Shown in pieces: positions 23,543-37,618 of a DNA stretch of 39,303 bases (position 1 is the first letter of the stretch; every line of letters starts with the position of its first letter). This DNA comes from Alphaproteobacteria bacterium (GTDB taxonomy: Bacteria > Pseudomonadota > Alphaproteobacteria > Caulobacterales > Aquidulcibacteraceae). The notes beneath the pieces are model-generated. The model saw only the letters and a program-made list of their open reading frames with translations, was not told where the DNA came from and did no database searches. Made by a program: the position numbers and the translations under genes. The stretch spans positions 1 to 39,303 of the forward strand of contig JAIYAO010000197.1 of NCBI GenBank assembly GCA_027488965.1, given 5' to 3'.

Positions 23543-24733
23543 TCAGGCCCGCACGAGGCCGCGGAGCGGGGCTGCGCCGGCGCTGTCGGGAAAGATCGCC
23601 GCGGCGTTCACGCCGAGATGGTCGCCCAGCAGGCCCTTCAGCACGGCGCGCACGTCCGTGGTGGGGCGGAGGTCGCGGCCTTCGTAGAGCTGCGCCTGGG
23701 CGAGGCCCGGCCAGTCGGCGATCACGCGCCCGCCCGCCACCGCCCCGCCGGTGAGGAACAGGGCCGAGGCCGTGCCGTGATCGCTGCCGCGGTTGCCGTT
23801 GGGCGCCACCGTGCGGCCGAACTCCGTCATGATCACCACCGCGGTGTCGGCCCACGCGGGGCCGAGTTCCGTCTTCAGCGTGGCGACGCCCGCGTCGAGC
23901 AGCGCGAGGCTGTTGGCGAGCTGGCCGCCGTCCACGCCCTGATTGGCGTGGGTGTCCCAGCCCGACATCTCGATCACCGCGGCGACGGGCCCGTCGGGGC
24001 GCCTGAGGAAGCCTGCGGCGGCCTTCGCCAGCGGCGCCACGGCGCGCGCCCCGGCGCGCCCGCCGGCCATGCCGCCCGCGTCCATGGCGATGGCGTTGGC
24101 GGCGATCGCGGAGTCGAGCGCGCCGGCCAGCGCGGGGTCGCGGGCGCGGTAGAGATCCATCAGCCGCGCGATGGTGTCCTGGTTGGCGTCCGGCATGGGG
24201 GAGGGCGACCAGGTGGCGACATTGGCGTCCCCACGCAGCACCAGCGGCGCCTGCGGCGCGATGGCGAGGCCCAGTTCACGCCGGCCGCTGCGCGCCTCCG
24301 CGCCGAGCGCGCCCAGCGCGGCGTTGAGCCAGCCGGAGTCCCGCGCGTAAGGGCGCGCGCCGCCCGTCTCCAGCATGTTCTGCGCATCGAAGTGCGAGCG
24401 TTCGCGGTAGGGCGTGGAGGCCGCGTGCACCACGGTCAGTTCGCGCGCGGCGTAGAGGCCGTGCAGCGTGGTGAGGCGCGGGTGCAGGCCGAAGGTGGCG
24501 TCGAGGGGCAGCGTCTGCGCGCGGGTCAGCGCCAGCTCCCGGCGCGCGCTCGCGTAGGCGGGATCGCCCACCGGCGCCACGGCGGCCAGGCCGTCCATGC
24601 CGCCGCGCAGGATCACCACGACGAGACGCTTCGACGAGGACGCCCCGAAGGCGAGCGCCGGAAAGGCGAGGGTGGCGAGGCCCGCGGAAAGCGCGGCGCG
24701 CCGGCTGATGCCCACAGGTCCGTGTCGGTGCAT
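23543..24733 (-). CDS. DUF1501 exported protein (sulfatase/alkaline-phosphatase-like fold)
   Basis: This 396-residue protein has a Tat-type signal near the N-terminus (I-S-R-R-A-A-L-S-A-G...A-L-A-F-G). It shows the DUF1501 blocks V-V-V-I-L-R-G-G-M-D-G-L, H-A-A-S-T-P-Y-R-E-R-S-H-F-D, S-G-W-D-T-H-A-N-Q-G, I-M-T-E-F-G-R-T-V and N-R-G-S-D-H-G-T-A. The conserved His and Asp residues suggest metal-dependent phosphatase-like chemistry, but the natural function is unknown. The start at 24733 follows GGAGATAGTGCG and lies 5 bases beyond the DUF1800 stop, so the two are cotranscribed as usual for this pair. Confidence 0.92.
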   Translation of the reverse strand: MHRHGPVGISRRAALSAGLATLAFPALAFGASSSKRLVVVILRGGMDGLAAVAPVGDPAYASARRELALTRAQTLPLDATFGLHPRLTTLHGLYAARELTVVHAASTPYRERSHFDAQNMLETGGARPYARDSGWLNAALGALGAEARSGRRELGLAIAPQAPLVLRGDANVATWSPSPMPDANQDTIARLMDLYRARDPALAGALDSAIAANAIAMDAGGMAGGRAGARAVAPLAKAAAGFLRRPDGPVAAVIEMSGWDTHANQGVDGGQLANSLALLDAGVATLKTELGPAWADTAVVIMTEFGRTVAPNGNRGSDHGTASALFLTGGAVAGGRVIADWPGLAQAQLYEGRDLRPTTDVRAVLKGLLGDHLGVNAAAIFPDSAGAAPLRGLVRA

Positions 24734-24737
24734 CGCA

Positions 24738-26213
24738 CTATCTCCGCTGGAATTCGGGGCTGGAGAACAGAAGGACCATGCCCTGTTGCGGGCTTTGCGC
24801 GCGGCGCACGGCCTCGCGCGTTTCGGCCGACAGCAGCGGGCCCAGCGCCGCATCGCCGATGCTGAGGGGATCGACGTCGGCGCGCGCCACGCGCTGTGAC
24901 AACGCCTCCGCCCACTCCATGCGCTTCCACACCAGATCGCCGGTGAGCCAGGGGGCTGCGATGTCGGCCCAGCCGTCGGGCCCGGCGGCGGTGTAGAGGC
25001 GCTGGCCCATGTTGGCGGCGGCGATGGCGCCGACGCCGGGGCCCAGCTGCCGGATGTTCAGCCCCCGCATCACGGAGATCAGGTATTCCTCCGGCCGCTT
25101 GAACTTGGCGAAGGGCTGCGCCCACGCCTCGGGGCTGTCCACCAGCGTCTCCATGCAGGCGCGCAGGTCGCCGCCGGTGCGCACGAACGTCTGTTCGATG
25201 CGGGCGACGGCGGCGGGCGGGGGCGCGTCGGCGATGTAGTGGCGCGCGAGCTTCGTGGCGATGAAGCGGGCGGTGGCGGGATGGCGCGCGATGTCGGCCA
25301 GCGCGGCCTCGCCCTGGGCGGCGCCGGCGGCGGTGTAGGGCTTGCCCATCAGCGTCTTGGCGCCCGGCTCGTGGGCGCCGGGCTCGAAGCGGAACATGGC
25401 CGCGCCGTCGCGCTTGCCCACGCTCTCGTTGAAGTAGTCCCGCGGTGCGGGGCGTTCATAGGTCCAGCCCGTGAGGATGGCCGCCAGCGCCTGCACGTCG
25501 CCCTGGCCATAGCCGCCGGTCACGCCCAGCGCGTGCAATTCCAGGATCTCGCGCGCGAGGTTTTCGTTGAGCCCGCTCGGCCGCCCGCCGGGGCCGAAGG
25601 TGTAGCGCGGCATGGACGCCGGGTTCTTCGCCCACGCGGAGTTGGGGCCGATGGACATCCAGTTGTCGAGGTAGATCGTCATGCCCGGATGTTTCGTGGA
25701 CGCCAGCAGCATGTCGGCGAAGCGGCCGGCCACGTGCGGGCGGATGGCCTCGCGCTCGAAGGAGGCGGGCATGGCGGCGGCCTGCGGCTTCTGCGCGCTG
25801 ACGGTGAAGTGGTTGGCCCAGAAGTGCGCGAGGCGCTCGAAGACGGGCCGGTCGGTGGCGAAGGCGGTGTCGAGCCGGGCCTTGGTGGACGCTTCGTAGC
25901 GGGCGCGGAAGTGCTGGCGGAAGGCCTCCTCCACGGGCTGCATCTGCGCCGAAGACACGCCCTGCTTCTCGAGGCGTTCGCGGATGCGGTCCCCGTTGGG
26001 GCCGTTCAGGCGTTGCGCCACGAAGAAGCGCCCGAACGCCAGCACGTCATCCTCCGCCGGCGGCAGTGCAGCCAGCGGGGCCGGCAGCGCGCGCTCCGGC
26101 GTCAGCTGCGCCTTCACCCACCCGCGCGGATCGCCGGCGATGACCCGCAGGTCTCCCGGGCGGGCGCCGAAGCCGAAGCGGTTGGCGGCGATGGCGGCCT
26201 GTTCAAGCGACAT
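24738..26213 (-). CDS. DUF1800 family protein, partner of DUF1501
   Basis: This 491-residue protein begins with A-A-I-A-A-N-R-F-G-F-G-A-R-P-G, the typical DUF1800 opening. It contains R-L-A-H-F-W-A-N-H-F-T-V-S, P-G-M-T-I-Y-L-D-N, N-E-N-L-A-R-E-I-L-E-L-H-A-L-G-V, L-T-G-W-T-Y and K-L-A-R-H-Y. DUF1800 proteins are found almost always beside DUF1501, as here (4-base gap). Their role is undefined; a link to surface or extracellular material processing has been suggested from context. No strong signal peptide is visible at this start (26213, preceded by CGGGAGACAG), so export may depend on the Tat-exported partner. Confidence 0.92.
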   Translation of the reverse strand: MSLEQAAIAANRFGFGARPGDLRVIAGDPRGWVKAQLTPERALPAPLAALPPAEDDVLAFGRFFVAQRLNGPNGDRIRERLEKQGVSSAQMQPVEEAFRQHFRARYEASTKARLDTAFATDRPVFERLAHFWANHFTVSAQKPQAAAMPASFEREAIRPHVAGRFADMLLASTKHPGMTIYLDNWMSIGPNSAWAKNPASMPRYTFGPGGRPSGLNENLAREILELHALGVTGGYGQGDVQALAAILTGWTYERPAPRDYFNESVGKRDGAAMFRFEPGAHEPGAKTLMGKPYTAAGAAQGEAALADIARHPATARFIATKLARHYIADAPPPAAVARIEQTFVRTGGDLRACMETLVDSPEAWAQPFAKFKRPEEYLISVMRGLNIRQLGPGVGAIAAANMGQRLYTAAGPDGWADIAAPWLTGDLVWKRMEWAEALSQRVARADVDPLSIGDAALGPLLSAETREAVRRAQSPQQGMVLLFSSPEFQRR

Positions 26214-26415: not shown

Positions 26416-27402
26416 CTACAGCGGGCGGACGTTCACTTCGCGCGAGGCCAGCGGCAGTTCCAGCATCATGCCGAGGCGGGCCGTGACCACGTCGTCCACG
26501 CCGCTGGCGCGGGCTTCGCGGACCTGCATGTCGGCGAGGATCGGGTTCTCGCTGGCGTTGGTGAGCACGAGCGTGCCGGTGTTGGCCTTCGCCGCCGCTT
26601 CGGCGAGCTGCGCGAGGCCGGGGAAGAGGCCGTTGGTGTCGGTCTCGTGCAGGCGGGCGAAGTTGGTGGAGTCCGCGCCGTGGAGCACCACGTCGGCGTC
26701 CAGCTGCGCTTCTGCCCATTCGGCGCGGCCGTCGCCGGCCACCACGAGGCTGCGGCCGCGGTAGTCGAACCGGTAGCCCACGCGACCGGTGTAGGCGTCC
26801 TGCGCGGTGGTGAAGGCGGAGACCACGAGCCCGTCGCCCTCATAGACGATGACGTTCTTGCCCGGCTCCGGTGCGGGCGCCCAGGCTTCGAGGCCCGAGG
26901 CGGGGCCCACGCCCATGGCGTCGTTCAGGCCCTGGATCATGCGGTGCGAATCGGCGGGGCCGTACACCGGCAGGCGGGCGTTGTTGCGTTGCGGCGCGGC
27001 GAAGGACCAGATCTCGTCGAGATCGCCGGCGCGGGTCTGGTCGGCGCCCGTGAGCAGCACGGCCTGCAGGCGCGACAGCGGAATGCCCTTGGTTTCGAGC
27101 GCGTCGGCGGCGCCGGAGCCGGCATCGACGATGAAGAGGCGGCCGCCCGCAGCCACCGCGAGGCAGGGCTTCGGCCCGCGCCCTTCGCGCATCCCGGCGC
27201 CTACGCCGCAGACCACCGCGCGCAGCGCGTCGTCGGCGAACAGGCTCGCTTCATGCTCCGCCTGCAGATCGACTTTGAATCCTTCGTACGCCTTGGCGAG
27301 AGCTTCCTGGCCCTCCGGCGTCTGCGATCCCACGACCCAGCCGCCCCAGAAAATGGCGGTCAGAGCCACGAACGCGACCGATGTCGTGCCGATGGGATTC
27401 AT
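26416..27402 (-). CDS. membrane-anchored MBL-fold protein lacking the metal-binding motif
   Basis: This 328-residue protein has an N-terminal hydrophobic anchor (about 6-27) and then a metallo-beta-lactamase-fold layout: P-C-L-A-V-A-A-G-G-R-L-F-I-V-D-A-G-S-G, Q-A-V-L-L-T, a G-D-L-D-E-I-W stretch, Y-R-F-D-Y-R-G-R-S-L-V-V-A-G-D-G and later D-V-V-L-H-G-A. At 116-130, where active enzymes have T-H-x-H-x-D-H-x-G-D-L, it reads T-G-A-D-Q-T-R-A-G-D-L. All metal-binding His and Asp of the motif are gone, so hydrolase activity is unlikely; a binding or regulatory role is possible. The ATG at 27402 was chosen since the upstream extension runs into the divergent promoter region, where TATAAC (27430-27425) could be a -10. 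Confidence 0.75.
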   Translation of the reverse strand: MNPIGTTSVAFVALTAIFWGGWVVGSQTPEGQEALAKAYEGFKVDLQAEHEASLFADDALRAVVCGVGAGMREGRGPKPCLAVAAGGRLFIVDAGSGAADALETKGIPLSRLQAVLLTGADQTRAGDLDEIWSFAAPQRNNARLPVYGPADSHRMIQGLNDAMGVGPASGLEAWAPAPEPGKNVIVYEGDGLVVSAFTTAQDAYTGRVGYRFDYRGRSLVVAGDGRAEWAEAQLDADVVLHGADSTNFARLHETDTNGLFPGLAQLAEAAAKANTGTLVLTNASENPILADMQVREARASGVDDVVTARLGMMLELPLASREVNVRPL

Positions 27403-27500
27403 CTCAATACCCCGCAACCGTTCTGTTATATGGACCAGCACTGAGCCATCACCTGTTGCGCCTAACTAGAAACGGATTCTGCGTACAGAGGGTTAATAAG

Positions 27501-28292
27501 TTGTTCACAAGAGTTTTCGGATCGTTGTCGGCGCTGCGCGCGCGGCCCATTCCCGATCTTGCGGGAACGCGTCTCGCTCAGATCGGCGCGCGGAAATGGC
27601 CGCTCGATTCCACCAGTGATTCGTTTGCAGAATCCATCGTGCGCGCGGATCGTTTCGGTCTCGTCGGGCGCAATCACTACGCGCATGCACGCAACCCGCC
27701 GTACTGGCGCGCCATCGAGGGCGCGGTGGACGCGCTTTACGTGCGCGAGAGCGTGGGGGTGCGCCTGCAGGCGGCGGACCGGCGCCTGCGGGCCGAGGGG
27801 CTGCGGCTGCACCTGTTCGATGCGTGGCGTCCGCGCGCGGTGCAGGCCTACTTCCATGACGTGTGGATGCCGGCGGAGCTGCGCGCGCGCCATCCGTCGT
27901 GGTCCGATGAGGCCATCGCCGCCGAGGCCGGGCGCTACTGGGCGGCGCCCACGGTCGATCCCGCATCGCCTGCGCCGCACAGCACGGGCGGCGCCGTCGA
28001 TCTCACCATCGCCTGGGCCGACGATGGGGAACACCTGTTCATGGGCGGGCTGTTCGACGATCCCACCGCGCTCTCGCACCTCGACCGGCTGGAGCGCGCC
28101 TACGACGATGCGGGCTCCTATTCCGTGGAGGAGGCGCGCGCGAACCGGCGGCTGCTGTACTGGGTGATGATCGAGGCGGGTTTTGCCTGCTACGCGGAGG
28201 AGTGGTGGCACTATTCGTGGGGCGACCAGATGTGGGCCAAGCAGACCGGCGCGTCTGCGGCACACTACGGCCCGGTGGAGGAGATTCCGTGA
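27501..28292 (+). CDS. D-alanyl-D-alanine dipeptidase (VanX/peptidase M15D type)
   Basis: This roughly 263-residue zinc dipeptidase cleaves D-Ala-D-Ala. The zinc and catalytic motif is H-S-T-G-G-A-V-D at 160-167 (SxHxxGxAxD), and the second is E234-W-W-H237. The stretch F-D-A-W-R-P-R-A-V-Q provides the catalytic Arg. There is no ATG after the divergent start. TTG at 27501 with AGAGGG 8 bases upstream is the best guess; TTG at 27525 is possible, and the ATG at 27381 would overlap the opposite gene. In Gram-negatives this enzyme recycles cell-wall dipeptide. The glutamate racemase gene follows 76 bases downstream, another D-amino-acid enzyme. Confidence 0.85.
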   Translation: MFTRVFGSLSALRARPIPDLAGTRLAQIGARKWPLDSTSDSFAESIVRADRFGLVGRNHYAHARNPPYWRAIEGAVDALYVRESVGVRLQAADRRLRAEGLRLHLFDAWRPRAVQAYFHDVWMPAELRARHPSWSDEAIAAEAGRYWAAPTVDPASPAPHSTGGAVDLTIAWADDGEHLFMGGLFDDPTALSHLDRLERAYDDAGSYSVEEARANRRLLYWVMIEAGFACYAEEWWHYSWGDQMWAKQTGASAAHYGPVEEIP

Positions 28293-28368: not shown

Positions 28369-29205
28369 ATGACCCGCAAGCGCGCGCTCGTGTTCGACAG
28401 CGGCGTCGGCGGGCTGTCCGTGCTGGACGCCATCGTGGCGTCGGGCGCACCGCTCGATCTCGACTACGCCGCCGACGATCTCTGGCTGCCGTACGGCGAC
28501 AAGGGAGACGCGGCGTTGCGCGCGCGCGTGCCGGCGCTCATCGCCGCGCTCGTGCAGGAGTGGGCGCCGGATGTCGTCGTCATCGCGTGCAACACCGCCA
28601 GCACCATCGCGCTCGATGCGGTGCGCGCGGCGGTGGCCGTGCCCGTGGTCGGCGTCGTGCCGCCCATCAAGCCCGCAGCCGCGCGCACGCGCAGCGGCGT
28701 CATCGGCGTGCTCGCCACGCCCGCGACCGTCGCGCGGCCCTACACCGACGATCTCATCGCGCGCTTTGCAGCGGACATGCAGGTGATCCGGTTCGGCTCC
28801 ACCGCGCTTGTGGCGGCGGCGGAGGCGCGCCTTGCCGGCGGGGATGTGGACGGCGCGGCCGTGCGCGAAGCGATCGCTGCGCTGTTCGACGCGCCGGGCG
28901 GCGACCGTCTCGATGTGGTGGCGCTGGCCTGCACGCATTTTCCGCTGCTGGCGGATGACCTCGCCGCCGCTGCGCCGCGGGCGGTGGCGTGGCTCGATTC
29001 CGGCGCAGCGATCGCGGCGCGGGTGATGGATGTGCTGGGCCTGGCGCCCGATGCGCGGGGCGCGAGGCCCCGGCGTGCGGGCTTCACCGGCGACGGCGCG
29101 CGCGTGTGGGAGGCGTTCGCAGGGCGCGGGTTCACTGCGCGCGCGGTCATCGGCCCCGCGCCGGGGTTTGCGGTCGCGCCGGCGCCGGCGCAGCCGTTCG
29201 GGTAG
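28369..29205 (+). CDS. murI: glutamate racemase
   Basis: This 278-residue racemase makes D-glutamate for peptidoglycan. Its motifs are F-D-S-G-V-G-G-L-S-V (D10), P-Y-G-D-K-G at 41-46, first catalytic C74 in I-A-C-N-T-A-S-T, V-G-V-V-P-P-I-K and second catalytic C188 in A-C-T-H-F-P-L-L. Length is normal for the family. The ATG at 28369 follows GGGAGAATAGG; the ORF extends upstream to 28183 inside the dipeptidase gene, but without homology. It is probably cotranscribed with the dipeptidase. Confidence 0.95.
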   Translation: MTRKRALVFDSGVGGLSVLDAIVASGAPLDLDYAADDLWLPYGDKGDAALRARVPALIAALVQEWAPDVVVIACNTASTIALDAVRAAVAVPVVGVVPPIKPAAARTRSGVIGVLATPATVARPYTDDLIARFAADMQVIRFGSTALVAAAEARLAGGDVDGAAVREAIAALFDAPGGDRLDVVALACTHFPLLADDLAAAAPRAVAWLDSGAAIAARVMDVLGLAPDARGARPRRAGFTGDGARVWEAFAGRGFTARAVIGPAPGFAVAPAPAQPFG

Positions 29206-29303
29206 GCGCCGCAATTCCCCTGTGACGAGAATGCAACGGCCCGCGCGCTGCGTGAGAAAAGCGGGCCCGTTCCCTTGCTGCAGTCGGGCGTCGCGGTAGT
29301 CAT

Positions 29304-29340: not shown

Positions 29341-31050
29341 ATGGCTGCAAGAGTGCAACAGCAGGAAATCGGCCTGCATTCGGCGATCTGCAGCTTCGGG
29401 AACCTCCTCGGCGGCGAGCACTTCTTCGCGGTTCCGTATCTCCAGCGTCCGTACGAGTGGGGGGAGGCGGAAGTGGCCGACATGGCGGGCGATTTGCTGC
29501 TCGCGTGCCAGGGCGGATATCTCAATTACTTTCTCGGCCACATCGTCGGCGTGCGCAACGAGCGCGGCCAGATCGAGATCGTCGATGGCCAGCAGCGGTT
29601 CATCACCACCACGATCCTGTTCGCCTACTTCCGCGACAGGGTGTCGGCGCGCAACGCGCCGCTGTCGGAGGCGCTGCAGGCGTGCGTGATGCAGGCCGGG
29701 CAGGCGCGCGTGACGCCGCGCCCGTCGGATGCCGAGTTCCTGTTCGACTGGGTGCAGACGCCCGGCCGCATGGACGCGCTCACCAAGGACTGGGCGCGCG
29801 ACGAGACGCCGCCGTTCCACTGCGCCACCGATGCGCAGGCGCTGATGGCGCTGGCGGCGCGCACCATCAAGGGCAAGCTCGACAGGCTCGGCCACGAAGC
29901 CATCGACAAGCTCGCGCTGTTCGTGCTCGACCGCGCGGTGGTGGACTTCATCATCGCCGACAACCGCACGCTGGCGGCGATCCTGTACCGCGGCATGAAC
30001 ATGCGCGGCAAACAGCTGTCGCCGGCGGATCTCATCAAGCTGGAAGCCATCGAGGGCACCGGGCTTGAGCCGGAGGTGAAGGAAGCCGCCGCGCGCACCT
30101 GGGAATCCATCGAGGACCGGCTGAAGCGCGACAACTTCACGTTCCTGCTGGAGATCATGCCGCTGCTGGTCTCGCGCCAGGTGACGGTGCGCCCCGGGGA
30201 CCTGATGGAGTGGCGCCGCCACGCCTTCGCCAGCGTCGATCCCGAGACGCTGTTGCTGCAACTCCTGCCCGTCTATGCCGACGTATTCGAGGAGATCATG
30301 GCCGGCGAGATCGCCGCCACGCCGAAGGATCGCGGCGAGGAGCAGGCCATGGCCACGGTGAACCGGCTCGTGAAGGGCCTGCTGTTCCTGCAGCCGGGCG
30401 ATCGCCACTGGGTGGCGCCGGCGATCAGCGCGATCCACGCGCACCGGGAGCGCCCGCATTTTCTCGCAAGCTTCTTCCAGCGGCTCGACCGTCTGGCGTT
30501 CGCCTGTTTCCTCGACGCCGTGCGCCACGAGGATCGCGCCGAGCGGTTCGCCGCGGTGGTGCGCGCCGGCGCCGACGAGACCCGGCTGTCGCACGCGTTC
30601 TCGCTGCGCAACGCCGAGGCCTCCAGCATGCTGCGGCGGCTGGGCGAGCCGTTCAAGCGCCACACGTGGCGCAGGCGTGCAGTGGCGGCGCGCATCAACG
30701 CGGCGTTTCCCGCCGGCTATTCCTTCGGCCCCGCCGAGGACGTGACGCTCGAACACGTGCTGCCCACCAGCATCAGCGCCGTGTGGGCGCAGCGCGGCTG
30801 GAGTGCGTCCGCGGCCAACGCCTGCGCCAACCTCGTGGGCAACTTCGTGCTCGTCACCGGCGCGCAGAACAACCGCGCCAGCCAGCGCGCCTTCGAGGAC
30901 AAGCAGAACATCTACTTCAACTGGCCGGGCGCGCCCGTGCATCCCATCACCGAAGACATCCGCCGCAACACCGACTGGACGGAGCGCCACGTGCGCGCGC
31001 GCACCGAACGCCTCATTGCCATGCTCGCCGCGGACTGGGATCTGGCGTAG
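29341..31050 (+). CDS. DUF262-DUF1524 protein (GmrSD-type nuclease)
   Basis: This 569-residue protein joins both halves of GmrSD-type restriction enzymes. The N-terminal DUF262 (ParB-like NTPase) has Y-L-Q-R-P-Y-E-W at 33-40 and the hallmark D-G-Q-Q-R at 82-86. The C-terminal DUF1524 HNH-type nuclease has L-E-H-V-L-P-T-S (H472) followed by N-L-V-G-N-F-V-L-V, N-N-R-A-S-Q-R-A-F-E-D-K. Known members cut modified (glucosylated or methylated) phage DNA without a partner methylase, and none is seen here. The start at 29341 follows AAGGAG with an 8-base spacer. It stands alone between housekeeping genes. An anti-phage role is inferred from the family. Confidence 0.85.
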   Translation: MAARVQQQEIGLHSAICSFGNLLGGEHFFAVPYLQRPYEWGEAEVADMAGDLLLACQGGYLNYFLGHIVGVRNERGQIEIVDGQQRFITTTILFAYFRDRVSARNAPLSEALQACVMQAGQARVTPRPSDAEFLFDWVQTPGRMDALTKDWARDETPPFHCATDAQALMALAARTIKGKLDRLGHEAIDKLALFVLDRAVVDFIIADNRTLAAILYRGMNMRGKQLSPADLIKLEAIEGTGLEPEVKEAAARTWESIEDRLKRDNFTFLLEIMPLLVSRQVTVRPGDLMEWRRHAFASVDPETLLLQLLPVYADVFEEIMAGEIAATPKDRGEEQAMATVNRLVKGLLFLQPGDRHWVAPAISAIHAHRERPHFLASFFQRLDRLAFACFLDAVRHEDRAERFAAVVRAGADETRLSHAFSLRNAEASSMLRRLGEPFKRHTWRRRAVAARINAAFPAGYSFGPAEDVTLEHVLPTSISAVWAQRGWSASAANACANLVGNFVLVTGAQNNRASQRAFEDKQNIYFNWPGAPVHPITEDIRRNTDWTERHVRARTERLIAMLAADWDLA

Positions 31051-31118: not shown

Positions 31119-32699
31119 TTACTCCCCCACGCGCGCGAGAAACTCCGGCGTGCGCGCGACGGGCTGGAAGCCCGACGCTTCGGAGAAGGCCAGCGGCCGC
31201 GTCTTGCGCGGGCCCAGCGGGATGTCGAGGCGCTCCACCGTTGCGAAGGCGGCGAAGTCGCCCGCCACGAACGCCTCGTAGCGCGGCGACATGTGCACCA
31301 CGAGCACGCGGGCGCCCACGTCGGCGGTCATGGGGGCGGCGGCTTCGGCCTGGTTGCCGGCGCCGGCGCGCAGCACGTACATCCGCAGCGGCGGCAGGCC
31401 CGCATCGTCGCGCCACTGGTACTGCAGCTCGTTGAACATGTGGCGGTGGTCCACCAGCACGGCGGAGTAGGGGGCGCCCGCCGCCGCTGCGGCGCGCGCC
31501 CGCGCGGCGATGGCGTCCGCCGTCTCCGGCCAGGCGTTCATCCGCTTCAGCCCGTTCTCGATGGGTCGGCCCAGCAGCGGCGCGCGATAGGCCGCCGCCG
31601 GCGCCAGCGCGAGCGCGAGGAACACCGCATAGAGCCCGGCGTGGATCAGGGTGCTGCGCACCAGCGCGGGGCCCCGCGCGAAAGCGCCGGCGGTCAGCAC
31701 CAGGGCGGCAGGGTAGGCGGCGGCGGCCCAGTTGCCGTGCGCGCGGCTGATCAGCGCCTGCGTGATGATCAGCAGCAGCGGCGGCGCCACGAACGCCACG
31801 AGGAAACGCGCCCGGTCGTCGAAGGCCGCGGTCCCCCGCGCCAGCCGCCACAGCACCAGCACCAGCAGCACCGCCACGGCGCCCGCGACGCCGAGTTGGT
31901 CGCCCAGGAACGCGCCGAGCTGGTCGAGGTTGAGGAGGTCGCCGCGCCAGTCGGCGTTGGCGGCGGTGTGGGCGACGGTCTCGAAATCGTGCGCGGCGTT
32001 CCAGGCGAGGTTGGGGGCCAGCGCCAGCGCCGCCGCCGCCCCCGCCGCCGCGCCCTGCCAGGACAGCACCGCCTGCCGCACCGCGGGTGACAGGACCGCC
32101 GCCACGGCGAGGCAGAGCGGGAAGTAGAGCATCGCGTACTTGGCCAGCGCGCCGGCGCCCACCAGCGCCCCCGTCGCCAGCGCCCACGTCCAGCCCCGCG
32201 TCTCCACCCAGCGCCACGCGCACAGCAGCGCCGCCGACCACAGCGGCAGCATCAGCGCGTCCGTGGTGATCAGCGCCGAGGACAGCCACACGCCGGGGAT
32301 CAGCAGCCAGCCCACCCCGGCCCACCAGCCGGCCGCCGGGCCGTAAAGCCGCCGCCCGAGGGCGTAGAGCGCCACCGCGGCGCCTGCGTGCGCAAATGGC
32401 GCACCCAGCCGCACCGCCCACGGCGCATCGCCGAACACCGCCGTGGTCGCCGCGATCGTCCAGGCCACCAGCGGCGGCTTGGAGAAGTAGCCCCAGTCGA
32501 TGGTGCGCGACCACGACCAGTACTGCGCCTCGTCCGGATGCAGCCCCAGCGGCGTTATCAGGAGGCACGCGACCCGCAGGATCGTCATGGCGGCCAAGAA
32601 GACCAGGAAGCTGCGCACCGTCATCCAGGCGGGGGCGTCGGCTGCGGCGGCTGGCGGCGGCGGCGCGGGAACAGCGAGATCGAGGGTGGGGCTGGGCAT
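31119..32699 (-). CDS. GT39/ArnT-like (PMT family) membrane glycosyltransferase
   Basis: This 526-residue polytopic inner-membrane protein transfers a sugar from a polyprenyl-phosphate donor on the periplasmic side. The first loop has L-H-P-D-E-A-Q-Y-W-S-W, with the Asp-Glu pair that is the catalytic signature of the GT-C superfamily. D-W-G-Y-F-S-K-P-P-L-V-A-W follows in loop 1, and about ten hydrophobic helices come after. A soluble C-terminal periplasmic domain of about 130 residues follows. The acceptor may be lipid A or another envelope glycan. The ATG at 32699 (M-P-S-P-T-L) was chosen; extension to 32762 needs a TTG without a clear Shine-Dalgarno site. It converges with the DUF262 gene and is divergent from the large receptor. 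Confidence 0.85.
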   Translation of the reverse strand: MPSPTLDLAVPAPPPPAAAADAPAWMTVRSFLVFLAAMTILRVACLLITPLGLHPDEAQYWSWSRTIDWGYFSKPPLVAWTIAATTAVFGDAPWAVRLGAPFAHAGAAVALYALGRRLYGPAAGWWAGVGWLLIPGVWLSSALITTDALMLPLWSAALLCAWRWVETRGWTWALATGALVGAGALAKYAMLYFPLCLAVAAVLSPAVRQAVLSWQGAAAGAAAALALAPNLAWNAAHDFETVAHTAANADWRGDLLNLDQLGAFLGDQLGVAGAVAVLLVLVLWRLARGTAAFDDRARFLVAFVAPPLLLIITQALISRAHGNWAAAAYPAALVLTAGAFARGPALVRSTLIHAGLYAVFLALALAPAAAYRAPLLGRPIENGLKRMNAWPETADAIAARARAAAAAGAPYSAVLVDHRHMFNELQYQWRDDAGLPPLRMYVLRAGAGNQAEAAAPMTADVGARVLVVHMSPRYEAFVAGDFAAFATVERLDIPLGPRKTRPLAFSEASGFQPVARTPEFLARVGE

Positions 32700-32933
32700 A
32701 GCCGGTTTTGCGGCGCCGGGCGCAATGGTGCAACGCGGCGCCGGCGCCACACTCTCCGGCAATCGCGCCGTTGGGGAGCCGAAATGGCGGTCAAACGGGC
32801 CCAGTCACAAAAGCTTCGAGAAACCGTTAACGAACCATGAATTTCGGCGGGTAGGCGACGCAGGCGCGGCGGAAAAGAGGCGGAGGGCTGCCTCTCTCGC
32901 GGACGCGTCGATATCTCCGAGGGGGTTAGTTGC

Positions 32934-35900
32934 ATGTTTAAGAAGCTTTTGGGCGGCGCTGCGGTCACCGCGCTGAGCCTGGCGATCGCGCCGGCGGCTC
33001 TGGCGCAGGAAACGACGTCCGCGGTCCGCGGCGAGGTCCTGTCCACCTCGGGCACGCGCATCGAAGGCGCGACCGTGAAGGTCACGCACGTGCCCACCGG
33101 CACCGTGACCCAGGAAAGCACCGCCGGCGGGCTGTTCGGCCTGCGCGGCCTGCGCGTCGGCGGCCCATACACCGTGGAAGTCACCGCCCCGGACTATCAG
33201 GGCCAGCGCGTCGATGACGTGTACCTCTCCGTGGGCGATCCGCTCCGCCTCGATTTCGCGCTTGAAACCTCGGTGGATGAAATCGTGGTGGCCACGGCGC
33301 GCCGCCAGGTTGGCGAGCCGATCGTCGGCAGCGGCACCTCTCTGAACCAGAGCGAGATCCGCGAAGTCGTCTCCATTCAGCGCGACATCCGCGACCTCGC
33401 CCGCCGCGACCCCCTCGTGACGCAGGACGTGGGCTCCAACCGCGGCGGCGGCGGCCAGGGCGGCATCTCCATCGCCGGCTCCGCGCCCCGTTCGAACCGC
33501 ATCACCGTGGACGGCATGCAGGCCGGCGACGACTTCGGCCTCGTCACCAACGGCCTGTCGACGCTCCGCGGCCCGGTCTCGCTCGACGCCATCGAGCAGT
33601 TCTCCGTGCAGGTCGTGCCGTTCGACGTGGAGAACGGCGACTTCACCGGCGGCGCGCTGAACCTCGTGCTCAAGCAGGGCACCAACGACTTCGAAGGCAC
33701 CGCCTTCCTGAACTACCTGAACGACGGGTTCGTGGGCGAACGCATCCGCGACAACCCCGCCAACACCATCGTGCGCCAGGAAAACTACGGCGGCTTCATC
33801 GGCGGCCCGATCATCCCGGACCGTCTCTTCTTCGCGGCCTCCTACGAGTACTATGAGTCGCTGGACGTCACGGCGCGCGGCCTCGCCGACGAAGGCTTCG
33901 CCAACGTGCTCACCGGCTTCGGCGGCACGGGGACGTCGTTCTCGCGCGCGGACCTGAACTCCATCCTGAACCCCGGCGTGGCCGGGCAGGGGTATGTGGG
34001 CAACTACGCGGTGGCGCCGCGGTTCGCACCCGGCGATTTCTCGCTCACGGCGCCCATCGCCGACGAGAAGTACACCGGCCGGATCGACTGGAACATCACG
34101 GACGATCACCGCCTCTCTTTGACCTACCGCACGGCGGAATCGTCGCTCATCATCCGGGACTTCCCGGCCACCCGCGGCGACCTCAGCTCCAGCTGGTATG
34201 CGGCGGCGGACACCGAAGAGGTGATGGTCGGCCAGCTCAACTCGACCTGGACGGACAACTTCACCACCGAACTGCGCGCCAGCTACCGCAACTACGAGCG
34301 CCGTCAGCAACCGGCCTCCGGCCAGGAATTCGGCGCCGTGCAGATCTGCGCGACGCAGGATATCGGCACCATCGTCGGCAACAGCACGGCCTGCGGAACA
34401 GCCGCGAACTCGGGTCGCACTGTCATCAACTTCGGGCCGGACCAGTTCCGTCACGCCAACTTCCTGAACACGACCAACCTGCAGGTGAACGCCTCGGGCG
34501 AGTACGAACTTGGCCGTCACCTGCTGAAGGCGGGCTACCAGTACCAGGGCATCGGCGTCGAAAACCTGTTCGTCCAGACCAGCGACGGCGTATTCTACTT
34601 CGACTCCGTCGACGCGTTTAACCGCGGCGAGATGAGCCGGTTCACCTACAACAACACCGCCAGCGGCAATCCGCGCGACGCCATCGCGGACTTCGAGTAC
34701 GGCATCAACACTCTGTTCGCCCAAGACTCCTGGGACCTCACGGAAAGTCTCTCGATCAACGCCGGCGTCCGCTACGACTACTACACCTCCAACGACAAGC
34801 CCACGCTCAACCCCTTCTTCCTCGCGCGCAATGGCTTCTCCAACCAGACGACGTACGACGGCCTCGATGTGCTGATGCCGCGCTTCTCGTTCGAGTTCGA
34901 GCCCGATGACGGCGCGATCCAGGTCAGCGGCGGCGTGGGTCTCGTGTCGGGCGGCGCGCCGGACGTGTTCCTGTCCAACAGCTTCTCCAACACGGGCGTG
35001 CTGACGGCGGCGGTGGACATCCGTCGCCTCAACTCGGGCAGCACGGGCGCGTTCTGCGCGGAGAACAACTCCAACACGACGCTGACCGAAGCCCAGTGCC
35101 GCATCCTGCTGAACGTGGACAAGGCCAACTCCAACCTGTTCTTCGACATCCCCACGGGCACGATCGGCGGCAACGCCTTCAGCGCCCAGTCGCTGGTGTC
35201 GCAGTTCGATCCCCGCAACCCCGCCAACGCCTCTCTGGCGCTGGCGAGCCTCCAGGAAACCAACGCGCTGGACCGCAACTTCGAGATCCCGTCCGACTGG
35301 AAGGGCAACGTCGCCCTCACCGTGAAGGCGCTGGGCTTCGACGTGGGCTTCAACCTGGTGGGCATCCGGAGCAACGAGTCGGTGGCGTTCCGCGACACGC
35401 GGGCGCGCCCGCTGGTCATCCCGAACCCGACGCTGGCGGAGCGGGCGGCCGGCGTGCAGCCCGGCGTGCAGCGCACGCCGGACGGGCGCCTCCGGTACGA
35501 CGGCCTCAGCCTCAGCGACGCCGACCGTGCGCTGCGCGGCATGACCGGCGGCGCCAACGGCTCGCCCACCAACATCCTCTCCAACCGCGACATCGTCGCC
35601 TACAATCCGGGTGAGGAAAGCTGGTCCGTCGTCACGGGCTTCTCGCTCTCGCGCACCTTCGAGAACGGCCTCAACTTCGGCCTCGCCTACATCCGTCAGG
35701 ACGGCGAAGACTTCGGCGGCTACGCGCAGTTCGGCACCACCGCGAACGGGTTCTACGGCGAGCAGTACACGGCGCTCGACCCGAACACCTCCACGCTGGG
35801 CCGCTCCAACGGCGAGATCGAGAACAGCTTCAAGTTCGACTTCGGCTGGACGGCCACGCCGTTCGGCGACTACGAGACGAGCTTCAACCTCTTCGGGGAA

Positions 35901-36497
35901 CGCCGTTCGGGCCGGTCGCTGAACTTCTTGATGTCTCAGCAGACTGCGGGCCGGTCGAAGGAATTCGGCGTCAACCGCAACGACCAACTGCTGTTCGTGC
36001 CGGACCTGACGAACTGCTCGGGCGCCAATCTTACCTGCGGCAATGCGGGCACTGGCCTCGTCACCTTCGCGACCACCGCCGATCGTGACGCGTTCACCCG
36101 CATCGTGGGCCAGTTCGGCCTGCCGCAGGGCGGCATCGTGCCGAAGAGCGCGGCCAACAACCCGGACGTGACGCAGGTGGACCTGCAGATCAGCCAGGAA
36201 GTGCCCGGCTTCCTGCGCAACCAGCGCGGCCGGATCTCCTTCGACATCGCCAACGTCCTCAACCTGTTGAACGACGATTGGGGTGTGGTGGAGGAGTTCG
36301 GCGACAGCCGCGCCGGCGGCCGCGTGGCCAACGTGGACTGCGCCGACAACATGGGCATCGCCCAGGCCGCGTCGAGCCCGATCTGCACCACGTACCGCTA
36401 CTCCAACGTCTCGACCAGCGTGTTCAACCAGGCCGCGTCGATCAACACCAACGAGTCCCGCTGGGTGATCGCCATCGGCCTGAAGTACGACTTCTGA
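32934..36497 (+). CDS. large TonB-dependent receptor with N-terminal carboxypeptidase-regulatory-like domain
   Basis: This 1187-residue outer-membrane protein has a signal peptide (1-25, ...A-A-L-A-Q). A CarboxypepD_reg/OmpA-receptor-type beta domain follows at about 28-112 (V-R-G-E-V-L-S-T-S-G-T-R-I-E-G-A-T-V, G-G-P-Y-T-V-E-V-T-A-P). Then come D-E-I-V-V-A-T-A-R-R, a plug with S-A-P-R-S-N-R-I-T-V-D-G-M and E-N-G-D-F-T-G-G-A-L-N-L-V, and a long beta-barrel ending G-L-K-Y-D-F. This class is used for oligosaccharide, protein-derived or unknown large substrates. The ATG at 32934 follows GAGGGGG. It is a single gene with its own strong terminator; no neighbouring gene indicates a ligand. Codon use gives a 1060-codon open frame on the other strand, a shadow. 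Confidence 0.93.
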   Translation: MFKKLLGGAAVTALSLAIAPAALAQETTSAVRGEVLSTSGTRIEGATVKVTHVPTGTVTQESTAGGLFGLRGLRVGGPYTVEVTAPDYQGQRVDDVYLSVGDPLRLDFALETSVDEIVVATARRQVGEPIVGSGTSLNQSEIREVVSIQRDIRDLARRDPLVTQDVGSNRGGGGQGGISIAGSAPRSNRITVDGMQAGDDFGLVTNGLSTLRGPVSLDAIEQFSVQVVPFDVENGDFTGGALNLVLKQGTNDFEGTAFLNYLNDGFVGERIRDNPANTIVRQENYGGFIGGPIIPDRLFFAASYEYYESLDVTARGLADEGFANVLTGFGGTGTSFSRADLNSILNPGVAGQGYVGNYAVAPRFAPGDFSLTAPIADEKYTGRIDWNITDDHRLSLTYRTAESSLIIRDFPATRGDLSSSWYAAADTEEVMVGQLNSTWTDNFTTELRASYRNYERRQQPASGQEFGAVQICATQDIGTIVGNSTACGTAANSGRTVINFGPDQFRHANFLNTTNLQVNASGEYELGRHLLKAGYQYQGIGVENLFVQTSDGVFYFDSVDAFNRGEMSRFTYNNTASGNPRDAIADFEYGINTLFAQDSWDLTESLSINAGVRYDYYTSNDKPTLNPFFLARNGFSNQTTYDGLDVLMPRFSFEFEPDDGAIQVSGGVGLVSGGAPDVFLSNSFSNTGVLTAAVDIRRLNSGSTGAFCAENNSNTTLTEAQCRILLNVDKANSNLFFDIPTGTIGGNAFSAQSLVSQFDPRNPANASLALASLQETNALDRNFEIPSDWKGNVALTVKALGFDVGFNLVGIRSNESVAFRDTRARPLVIPNPTLAERAAGVQPGVQRTPDGRLRYDGLSLSDADRALRGMTGGANGSPTNILSNRDIVAYNPGEESWSVVTGFSLSRTFENGLNFGLAYIRQDGEDFGGYAQFGTTANGFYGEQYTALDPNTSTLGRSNGEIENSFKFDFGWTATPFGDYETSFNLFGERRSGRSLNFLMSQQTAGRSKEFGVNRNDQLLFVPDLTNCSGANLTCGNAGTGLVTFATTADRDAFTRIVGQFGLPQGGIVPKSAANNPDVTQVDLQISQEVPGFLRNQRGRISFDIANVLNLLNDDWGVVEEFGDSRAGGRVANVDCADNMGIAQAASSPICTTYRYSNVSTSVFNQAASINTNESRWVIAIGLKYDF

Positions 36498-36524
36498 TCC
36501 ACGGTTCCTCCCGGAAACAGCCTG

Positions 36525-36557
36525 AAGGGGGCGGCGCAGGCCGCCCCCTTATTTTTT
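36525..36557 (+). terminator. intrinsic terminator of the large receptor gene
   Basis: AAGGGGGCGGC (36525-36535) pairs perfectly with GCCGCCCCCTT (36540-36550) around GCAG, followed by ATTTTTT. This is a textbook rho-independent terminator 28 bases after the stop codon, the strongest in the window. Confidence 0.93.
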
Positions 36558-36628
36558 GGTCCGACGCCGCACGCGCTTCGCCGTCGCGCCCTTGCATTTC
36601 CCCCGGCGCCCGCGCATCTGCGCTCCCC

Positions 36629-37618
<990 letters not shown>

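Follow-up and report, generated by a model that had tools for sequence, protein, structure and literature searches.

A fused GmrSD-type nuclease gene at a fixed locus in two families of the Caulobacterales, with a possible role as built-in restriction

Why does a gene for a fused GmrSD-type nuclease stand between housekeeping genes, and is it an accessory defence gene or a permanent part of its lineage? The question is raised by the open reading frame at 29341-31050 (+) of the window (the whole stretch of 39,303 nucleotides analysed here), which runs uninterrupted from ATG to stop and encodes 569 aa.

The gene and its predicted fold

The gene start at 29341 is likely, if unproven, because an AAGGAG-like stretch precedes this ATG, yet an in-frame TTG lies further 5′ at 29275. 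Both Pfam domains of the family are found in the single chain and above their curated cut-offs (GmrSD_N at residues 21-233, E 3.8e-20; GmrSD_C at residues 468-560, E 3.4e-14), and the QR, I/V-DGQQR and E/D-H-N-N motifs listed in PMC4619093 are all present. Together with the residue conservation described below, this bears out the claim of the sequence-only reading that the protein is a fused GmrSD type with intact DGQQR and HNH motifs; judged by its sequence, the product of 29341-31050 is a member of the GmrSD family (fused DUF262/DUF1524) and has kept both active-site motifs. No second PF03235 match occurs in the same genome, and the best PADLOC models for the protein are Orf5 (2.8e-42) and HEC-06 (2.1e-36). 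The gene and its parts are:

29341..31050, + strand: fixed-locus GmrSD-type nuclease gene (569 aa), with a DUF262 NTPase-like domain, a helical middle and a DUF1524 HNH domain
29401..30039, + strand: GmrSD_N (DUF262) domain, with Q35 R36, DGQQR 82-86, N220/G223 and D230/K233
30061..30720, + strand: helical middle in the predicted model (about residues 240-460), aligned with the C-terminal half of SspE/DndI
30742..31020, + strand: GmrSD_C (DUF1524) HNH domain, with E471, H472, P475, N501, N510 and K521

Structure prediction, a check proposed along with the sequence-only reading, was carried out with AlphaFold2, for which 51 relatives in the genome_contigs collection were added to the window protein, and resulted in a model with a mean pLDDT of 92.1. 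The nearest solved structures to it are DndI (Z 21.1), SspE (Z 21.0) and BrxU (Z 13.6), so that the predicted fold, too, resembles that of the GmrSD family. Foldseek alone ranked DndI and SspE, with BrxU not among its best 50 rows, and DndI (9jfl) is the best match by both Foldseek and VIA (514 residues, rmsd 7.0). The middle of the protein had earlier been described as about 230 residues free of any recognised motif; the model confidently predicts this region to be helical, and together with the HNH part (model residues 224-569) it aligns to SspE 7dri over 333 residues (Z 20.5, rmsd 4.5). Aligned over the whole chain, the model differs from SspE 7drs by an rmsd of 18.6, as if the domains sit differently.

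One locus in two families

The same sequence-only reading had the gene flanked by housekeeping genes with no methylase or defence gene adjoining, and both statements hold. The racemase gene murI lies upstream and a PMT_2 glycosyltransferase gene downstream, within the following neighbourhood:

26416..27441, - strand: metallo-beta-lactamase-fold protein (MBL), a neighbour in both carrier families
27381..28292, + strand: M15 peptidase gene, 5′ end uncertain, a neighbour in part of the window's family
28369..29205, + strand: murI, glutamate racemase (start chosen by eye), which precedes the nuclease gene in most carriers within the window's family
31119..32762, - strand: PMT_2 glycosyltransferase, the convergent downstream neighbour in g1, g3, g9 and g11
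32934..36497, + strand: TonB-dependent receptor, a flank in some genomes of g1, g3, g4 and g11

PADLOC has no defence model for three near neighbours (E up to 0.1) or for ten further window genes (E up to 1e-5), and no cognate methylase was found in the immediate neighbourhood among the window ORFs scanned with Pfam or PADLOC. Twenty other window ORFs were scanned with Pfam, eight of them among the ten further PADLOC genes; the 12 that gave no Pfam match may be shadow ORFs. Elsewhere in the window, a peptidyl-arginine deiminase-type (PAD_porph) gene occupies 36278-37618 (+; E 5.6e-105), and 23543-26213 (-) holds a DUF1501 gene with an adjoining gene, putatively of the DUF1800 type, a pair that flanks the locus in several genomes.

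The gene is present in all three genomes of the window's genus. In the window's family 43 of 60 genomes have a match, and 41 of these (window included) carry it at the fixed locus, by which we mean marker genes within the fetched stretch and not strict adjacency; G016, on a short contig, was counted with one flanking gene, and G012 and G013 with the downstream flank only. The other two matches (G028 and G018) are divergent and non-syntenic. The 17 genomes without a match belong to g2 (nine genomes), g8 (five) and g5, g7 and g13 (a single genome each); the completeness of G019 (g7) is 63% and that of G017 (g5) 87%, and in G029 (g13) profile A1 gave a partial, distant match (1.1e-31). In family f2, which includes Hyphomonas, 99 of 105 genomes match at 1e-20, and 48 of the 49 fetched loci, a sample chosen for having a match, are syntenic. 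The f2 matches include a non-syntenic copy (G235) and two fragments (G647, G657), and eight f2 genomes of g40 and g326 (G187, G246, G673-G676, G678 and G680) hold a second, divergent GmrSD-like copy elsewhere in the genome, with 27-29% identity to the f2 query. Some f2 absences may be assembly gaps or losses of the whole region, because five of the seven f2 genomes without a core copy (G235, G242, G641, G677 and G688) also lack a TipF match below 1e-40, and the G642 contig begins beside TipF.

The gene order in the window's family is MBL(-), sometimes M15, MurI(+) and the GmrSD-type gene (GMR, +), then PMT(-) and often the TonB receptor. At g14 loci a DUF4332 gene(+) takes the place of PMT(-) after GMR(+); it is present in 30 of 30 loci, including L044, L046 and L048, and its product (L043 copy) has DUF4332, helix-hairpin-helix and Zn-dependent phospholipase-like domains. 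The f2 order is RibF(-), MaoC(-), HAD(-), TipF(-), often MBL(-), FAH(-) and GMR(+), followed mostly by SDR/4HBT or c28/PIP. Of 80 loci found, 28 were examined. The 15 named loci from the lineage share this gene arrangement; of the 13 that come from outside the taxonomic order, 12 are without any marker gene and L105 has an FAH-like gene. Carriers at the fixed locus include Hyphomonas polymorpha PS728 (L091) and Hyphomonas sp. L-53-1-40 (L089). Fourteen MurI stretches were also taken from genomes that lack a fixed-locus copy; none has GMR beside MurI, and in one of these genomes (G029) MurI adjoins three flank genes of the window's locus.

Could this nonetheless be an ordinary accessory type IV restriction gene that is here by chance? 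Relatives on plasmids (97 records at 1e-10, with 24-27% identity among the 20 matches listed) would fit such an origin, as would the patchiness of the family as a whole, with any match in 34 of 385 class genomes, five of them with one match of more than 500 residues. A profile search of the order found matches at 1e-10 in 97 of 249 genomes, of which 36 belong to the window's family, 50 to f2 and 11 to f3-f5, those of f3-f5 all weaker (best 2.9e-124, G110) and mostly partial, the fixed-locus copies scoring 1e-149 or better. A chance accessory gene is nevertheless very unlikely, as it is contradicted by the synteny, that is, by the same locus in two families, and by the common clade and purifying selection described below; accessory insertion was rejected on these three grounds. 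What a mobile or defence-island GmrSD gene should show, a variable site beside defence or mobility genes, was not seen at this locus, which is fixed and has 13 PADLOC-negative neighbours.

The neighbour common to the loci of both carrier families, MBL, is a putative degenerate metallo-hydrolase. Read by eye, the protein at 26416-27441 has an N-terminal hydrophobic segment and does not have HxHxDH, the usual metal motif of the metallo-beta-lactamase fold, and the MBLs of both families are homologous (window versus G147, 4e-18; G147 versus G119, 1e-15). Some f2 MBL homologues look like lipoproteins. A two-gene function of GMR with MBL would account for the MBL match below 1e-60 in all 41 fixed-locus carriers of the window's family, a match that the other 19 genomes lack, seven of them having weaker MBL matches only; in four of the 41 (G012, G013, G016 and G033) MBL is on a separate contig from GMR, and MBL is near GMR in much of f2 also. 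Such a partnership is improbable, however: the hydrophobic or lipoprotein-like N-terminal segment, as read by eye, makes an extracytoplasmic location of MBL probable, GMR is kept at several Hyphomonas loci that have no MBL, and the joint absence of the two genes may reflect one shared regional loss.

Constraint and descent

The catalytic residues are nearly invariant, as counted in the 89 fixed-locus copies and in alignment A1 (22 rows). In A1, E471, H472, P475, G500, N501, N510 and K521 are invariant, and in the 89 copies Q35, R36, D82, G83, Q85, R86, N220, G223, K233, E471, H472 and P475 are. Among the latter copies Q84 and D230 deviate in G016 only and N510 in G053 only, and the G026 contig stops before N501, N510 and K521. 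Counted by hand on the alignment, R86 and N510 of the window protein correspond to R87 and N541 of DndI; according to PMC11662687, loss of R87 abolished the ATPase, and loss of N541 strongly reduced nuclease activity and abolished protection.

The median dN/dS of GMR is 0.112 (148 close pairs), and those of its neighbours are 0.112 (FAH), 0.117 (TipF), 0.127 (RibF), 0.132 (HAD), 0.149 (MurI), 0.151 (MBL) and 0.154 (D4332), where the pairs were picked per gene (>75% identity) and so differ between genes. On the same genome pairs, the dN of GMR ranges from 1.38 times that of FAH to 1.95 times that of MaoC across five f2 neighbours (FAH, HAD, TipF, RibF and MaoC) and is about twice that of MurI in the window's genus; it is 0.72 times that of the f2 MBL and 0.72-1.02 times that of four g14 neighbours. 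From the dN/dS of 0.112 and these same-pair ratios, GMR is strongly constrained, but is drifting faster than the adjoining enzymes in f2 and in the window's genus.

Upstream of GMR, neither the LexA-type patterns tried nor the CtrA-type pattern occurs in any of the 89 regions, and GANTC precedes 50 of the 89 genes, within the range of the neighbours (11/27 to 46/49). Control by SOS or CtrA was rejected on these counts.

A tree of 69 rows groups the fixed-locus copies from the window's family and f2 in a single clade (SH-aLRT 100, stem 1.24). This tree was a quick search with SH-aLRT support only and holds 17 of the 41 fixed-locus copies of the window's family, 15 of the 48 from f2, seven non-syntenic copies and 30 relatives; four rows (L108, G235, L143 and G018) have very long branches. 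Movement within the clade has happened, as four of the seven non-syntenic copies lie inside it (G028, G018, G235 and the second copy of G030); outside it lie G110, the additional copies in G001 and G032 and all 30 of the other relatives.

For comparison we built an RpoB tree, rpoB being found in 27 of 30 genomes (none in G013, G017 and G027). Leaving aside the G002 fragment, the f1 carriers group together (99, 8 rows), as do the f2 carriers (100, 8 rows), and the non-carriers of g2, g7 and g8 form a third clade (100, 6 rows). The RpoB fragment of G002:C20 (L308), which was kept in the tree, lies far from its genus-mate and is perhaps on a mis-binned contig. The clades of the two trees are compatible, the order among carrier clades being equivocal. 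Gene presence on the RpoB tree requires three changes, which losses and block transfer fit alike, so that the gene may have been present ancestrally and then lost in places, or may have spread in a single block transfer early on. An origin from phage was rejected, since only three partial matches (12-40% coverage) were found among 50,697 phage records.

The same locus in most relatives, a common clade and purifying selection are what a vertically inherited core gene should show. A comparison of close relatives had been proposed with the sequence-only reading; the gene is indeed largely at the same site in the carrier genera, but it is absent from g2, g5, g7, g8 and g13 and therefore looks dispensable.

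Restriction, host function and known systems

With roughly even odds (about 0.5), we read the product as a self-contained, NTP-gated HNH nuclease that may persist mainly through descent and serve as built-in type IV-like restriction. According to this reading a GmrSD nuclease gene would have settled in the lineage at a fixed place and been passed on mostly by vertical inheritance. By analogy with DndI, SspE and BrxU, its DUF262 domain would bind and hydrolyse NTP at the DGQQR pocket upon meeting a chemical feature of DNA, and hydrolysis would move the helical C-terminal half such that the HNH domain nicks or cuts the DNA. The targets might, with less certainty, be incoming phage or plasmid DNA with modified bases foreign to the host, and the enzyme might then act as a permanent, partner-free type IV-like restriction, an innate and not a mobile defence. 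A defence role is plausible by analogy because the nearest solved structures, DndI, SspE and BrxU, have been described as anti-phage or restriction enzymes. As to function, the earlier proposal of a solitary type IV-like defence gene stays plausible, but the accessory picture that it implied does not hold up, given 41 of 60 genomes in the window's family, 48 of 49 fetched f2 loci and purifying selection. Against restriction, a lineage-wide gene at a single site is atypical of mobile defence genes, and the 13 tested window neighbours are without a defence model; GmrSD genes are often located in defence islands and mobile elements, as stated in PMC4619093.

If the enzyme has instead been domesticated for DNA surveillance, it would have a host job such as removal of damaged or aberrant DNA or control of replication or uptake, and defence would no longer be its main role. 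We favour restriction over such a recruited host function, which we hold only tentatively. The near-core distribution in carrier genera, the fixed locus, purifying selection, the long stem (1.24) leading to the clade with the fixed-locus copies and the lack of any defence gene beside GMR among the 13 window neighbours searched with PADLOC all suit it. On the other hand, a job that g2 (nine genomes), g8 (five) and g5, g7 and g13 (one each) do without is dispensable, the LexA-type and CtrA-type patterns are not found upstream of any of the 89 genes, and the close solved structures are defence enzymes. A history in which a restriction-type nuclease was captured once by an ancestor that Hyphomonas shares with the window's family, then made permanent, with surveillance as its main job, is possible though rather doubtful.

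The best sequence and fold matches, DndI and SspE, also raise the idea of a phosphorothioate (PT)-sensing effector that would depend on phosphorothioation of the host DNA to spare self. The site corresponding to Y25, the PT-sensing residue of DndI, is non-discriminating here, because it is Leu34 in the window protein yet Tyr in 83 of the 89 copies (Phe in three, Leu in three). A DndC model matched seven of 249 order genomes, two of them over the cut-off (G077 and G236, both f3) and five below it (G020 of g8, 8e-71; G003 of g2; G067 and G170 of f5; G185 of f4), and none of the seven is a fixed-locus carrier; another genome draw of equal size held 81 such carriers. Since DndC is needed for phosphorothioation, a phosphorothioate mark is unlikely, and searches with the DndC model alone found no phosphorothioation gene in the same genome as a fixed-locus copy; we regard a PT-sensing effector as highly improbable.

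Among the literature matches listed, no title (or abstract start) concerned a GmrSD gene that is core or has a fixed locus within the lineage, and no title a Hyphomonas Tn-seq study. The preferred reading of built-in restriction and that of recruitment are both testable, as two families have this enzyme at a single fixed site with its active sites intact, and deletion tests are possible because named Hyphomonas isolates, PS728 and L-53-1-40, carry the gene at the fixed locus. It also follows that a DUF262-DUF1524 match scored by a defence finder is not necessarily accessory immunity.

Of the known systems, DndI (9jfl), the effector of IscS-DndBCDE-DndI, shares with the window protein the two domains, the length class and the DGQQR and HNH residues, but it belongs to a dnd operon and senses phosphorothioate, and there is no dnd operon at the window's locus. 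SspE (6jiv, 7drs and 7dri) has the same domain order, but is longer (771 aa), PT-dependent and works with SspABCD. BrxU and Eco94GmrSD are likewise single-chain GmrSD proteins with DGQQR and D/E-H-N-N motifs; unlike the window's gene, BrxU comes from a plasmid defence island (PMC8565348), and the modified-cytosine substrates are those of BrxU and Eco94GmrSD. Orf5 and HEC-06 are the best PADLOC matches, but are models of known or candidate defence systems. Finally, accessory DUF262 proteins within the order (the second copies of G001 and G032, and G110) have the same architecture by their match to P0001, whereas they are found at other loci and outside the clade of the fixed-locus copies.
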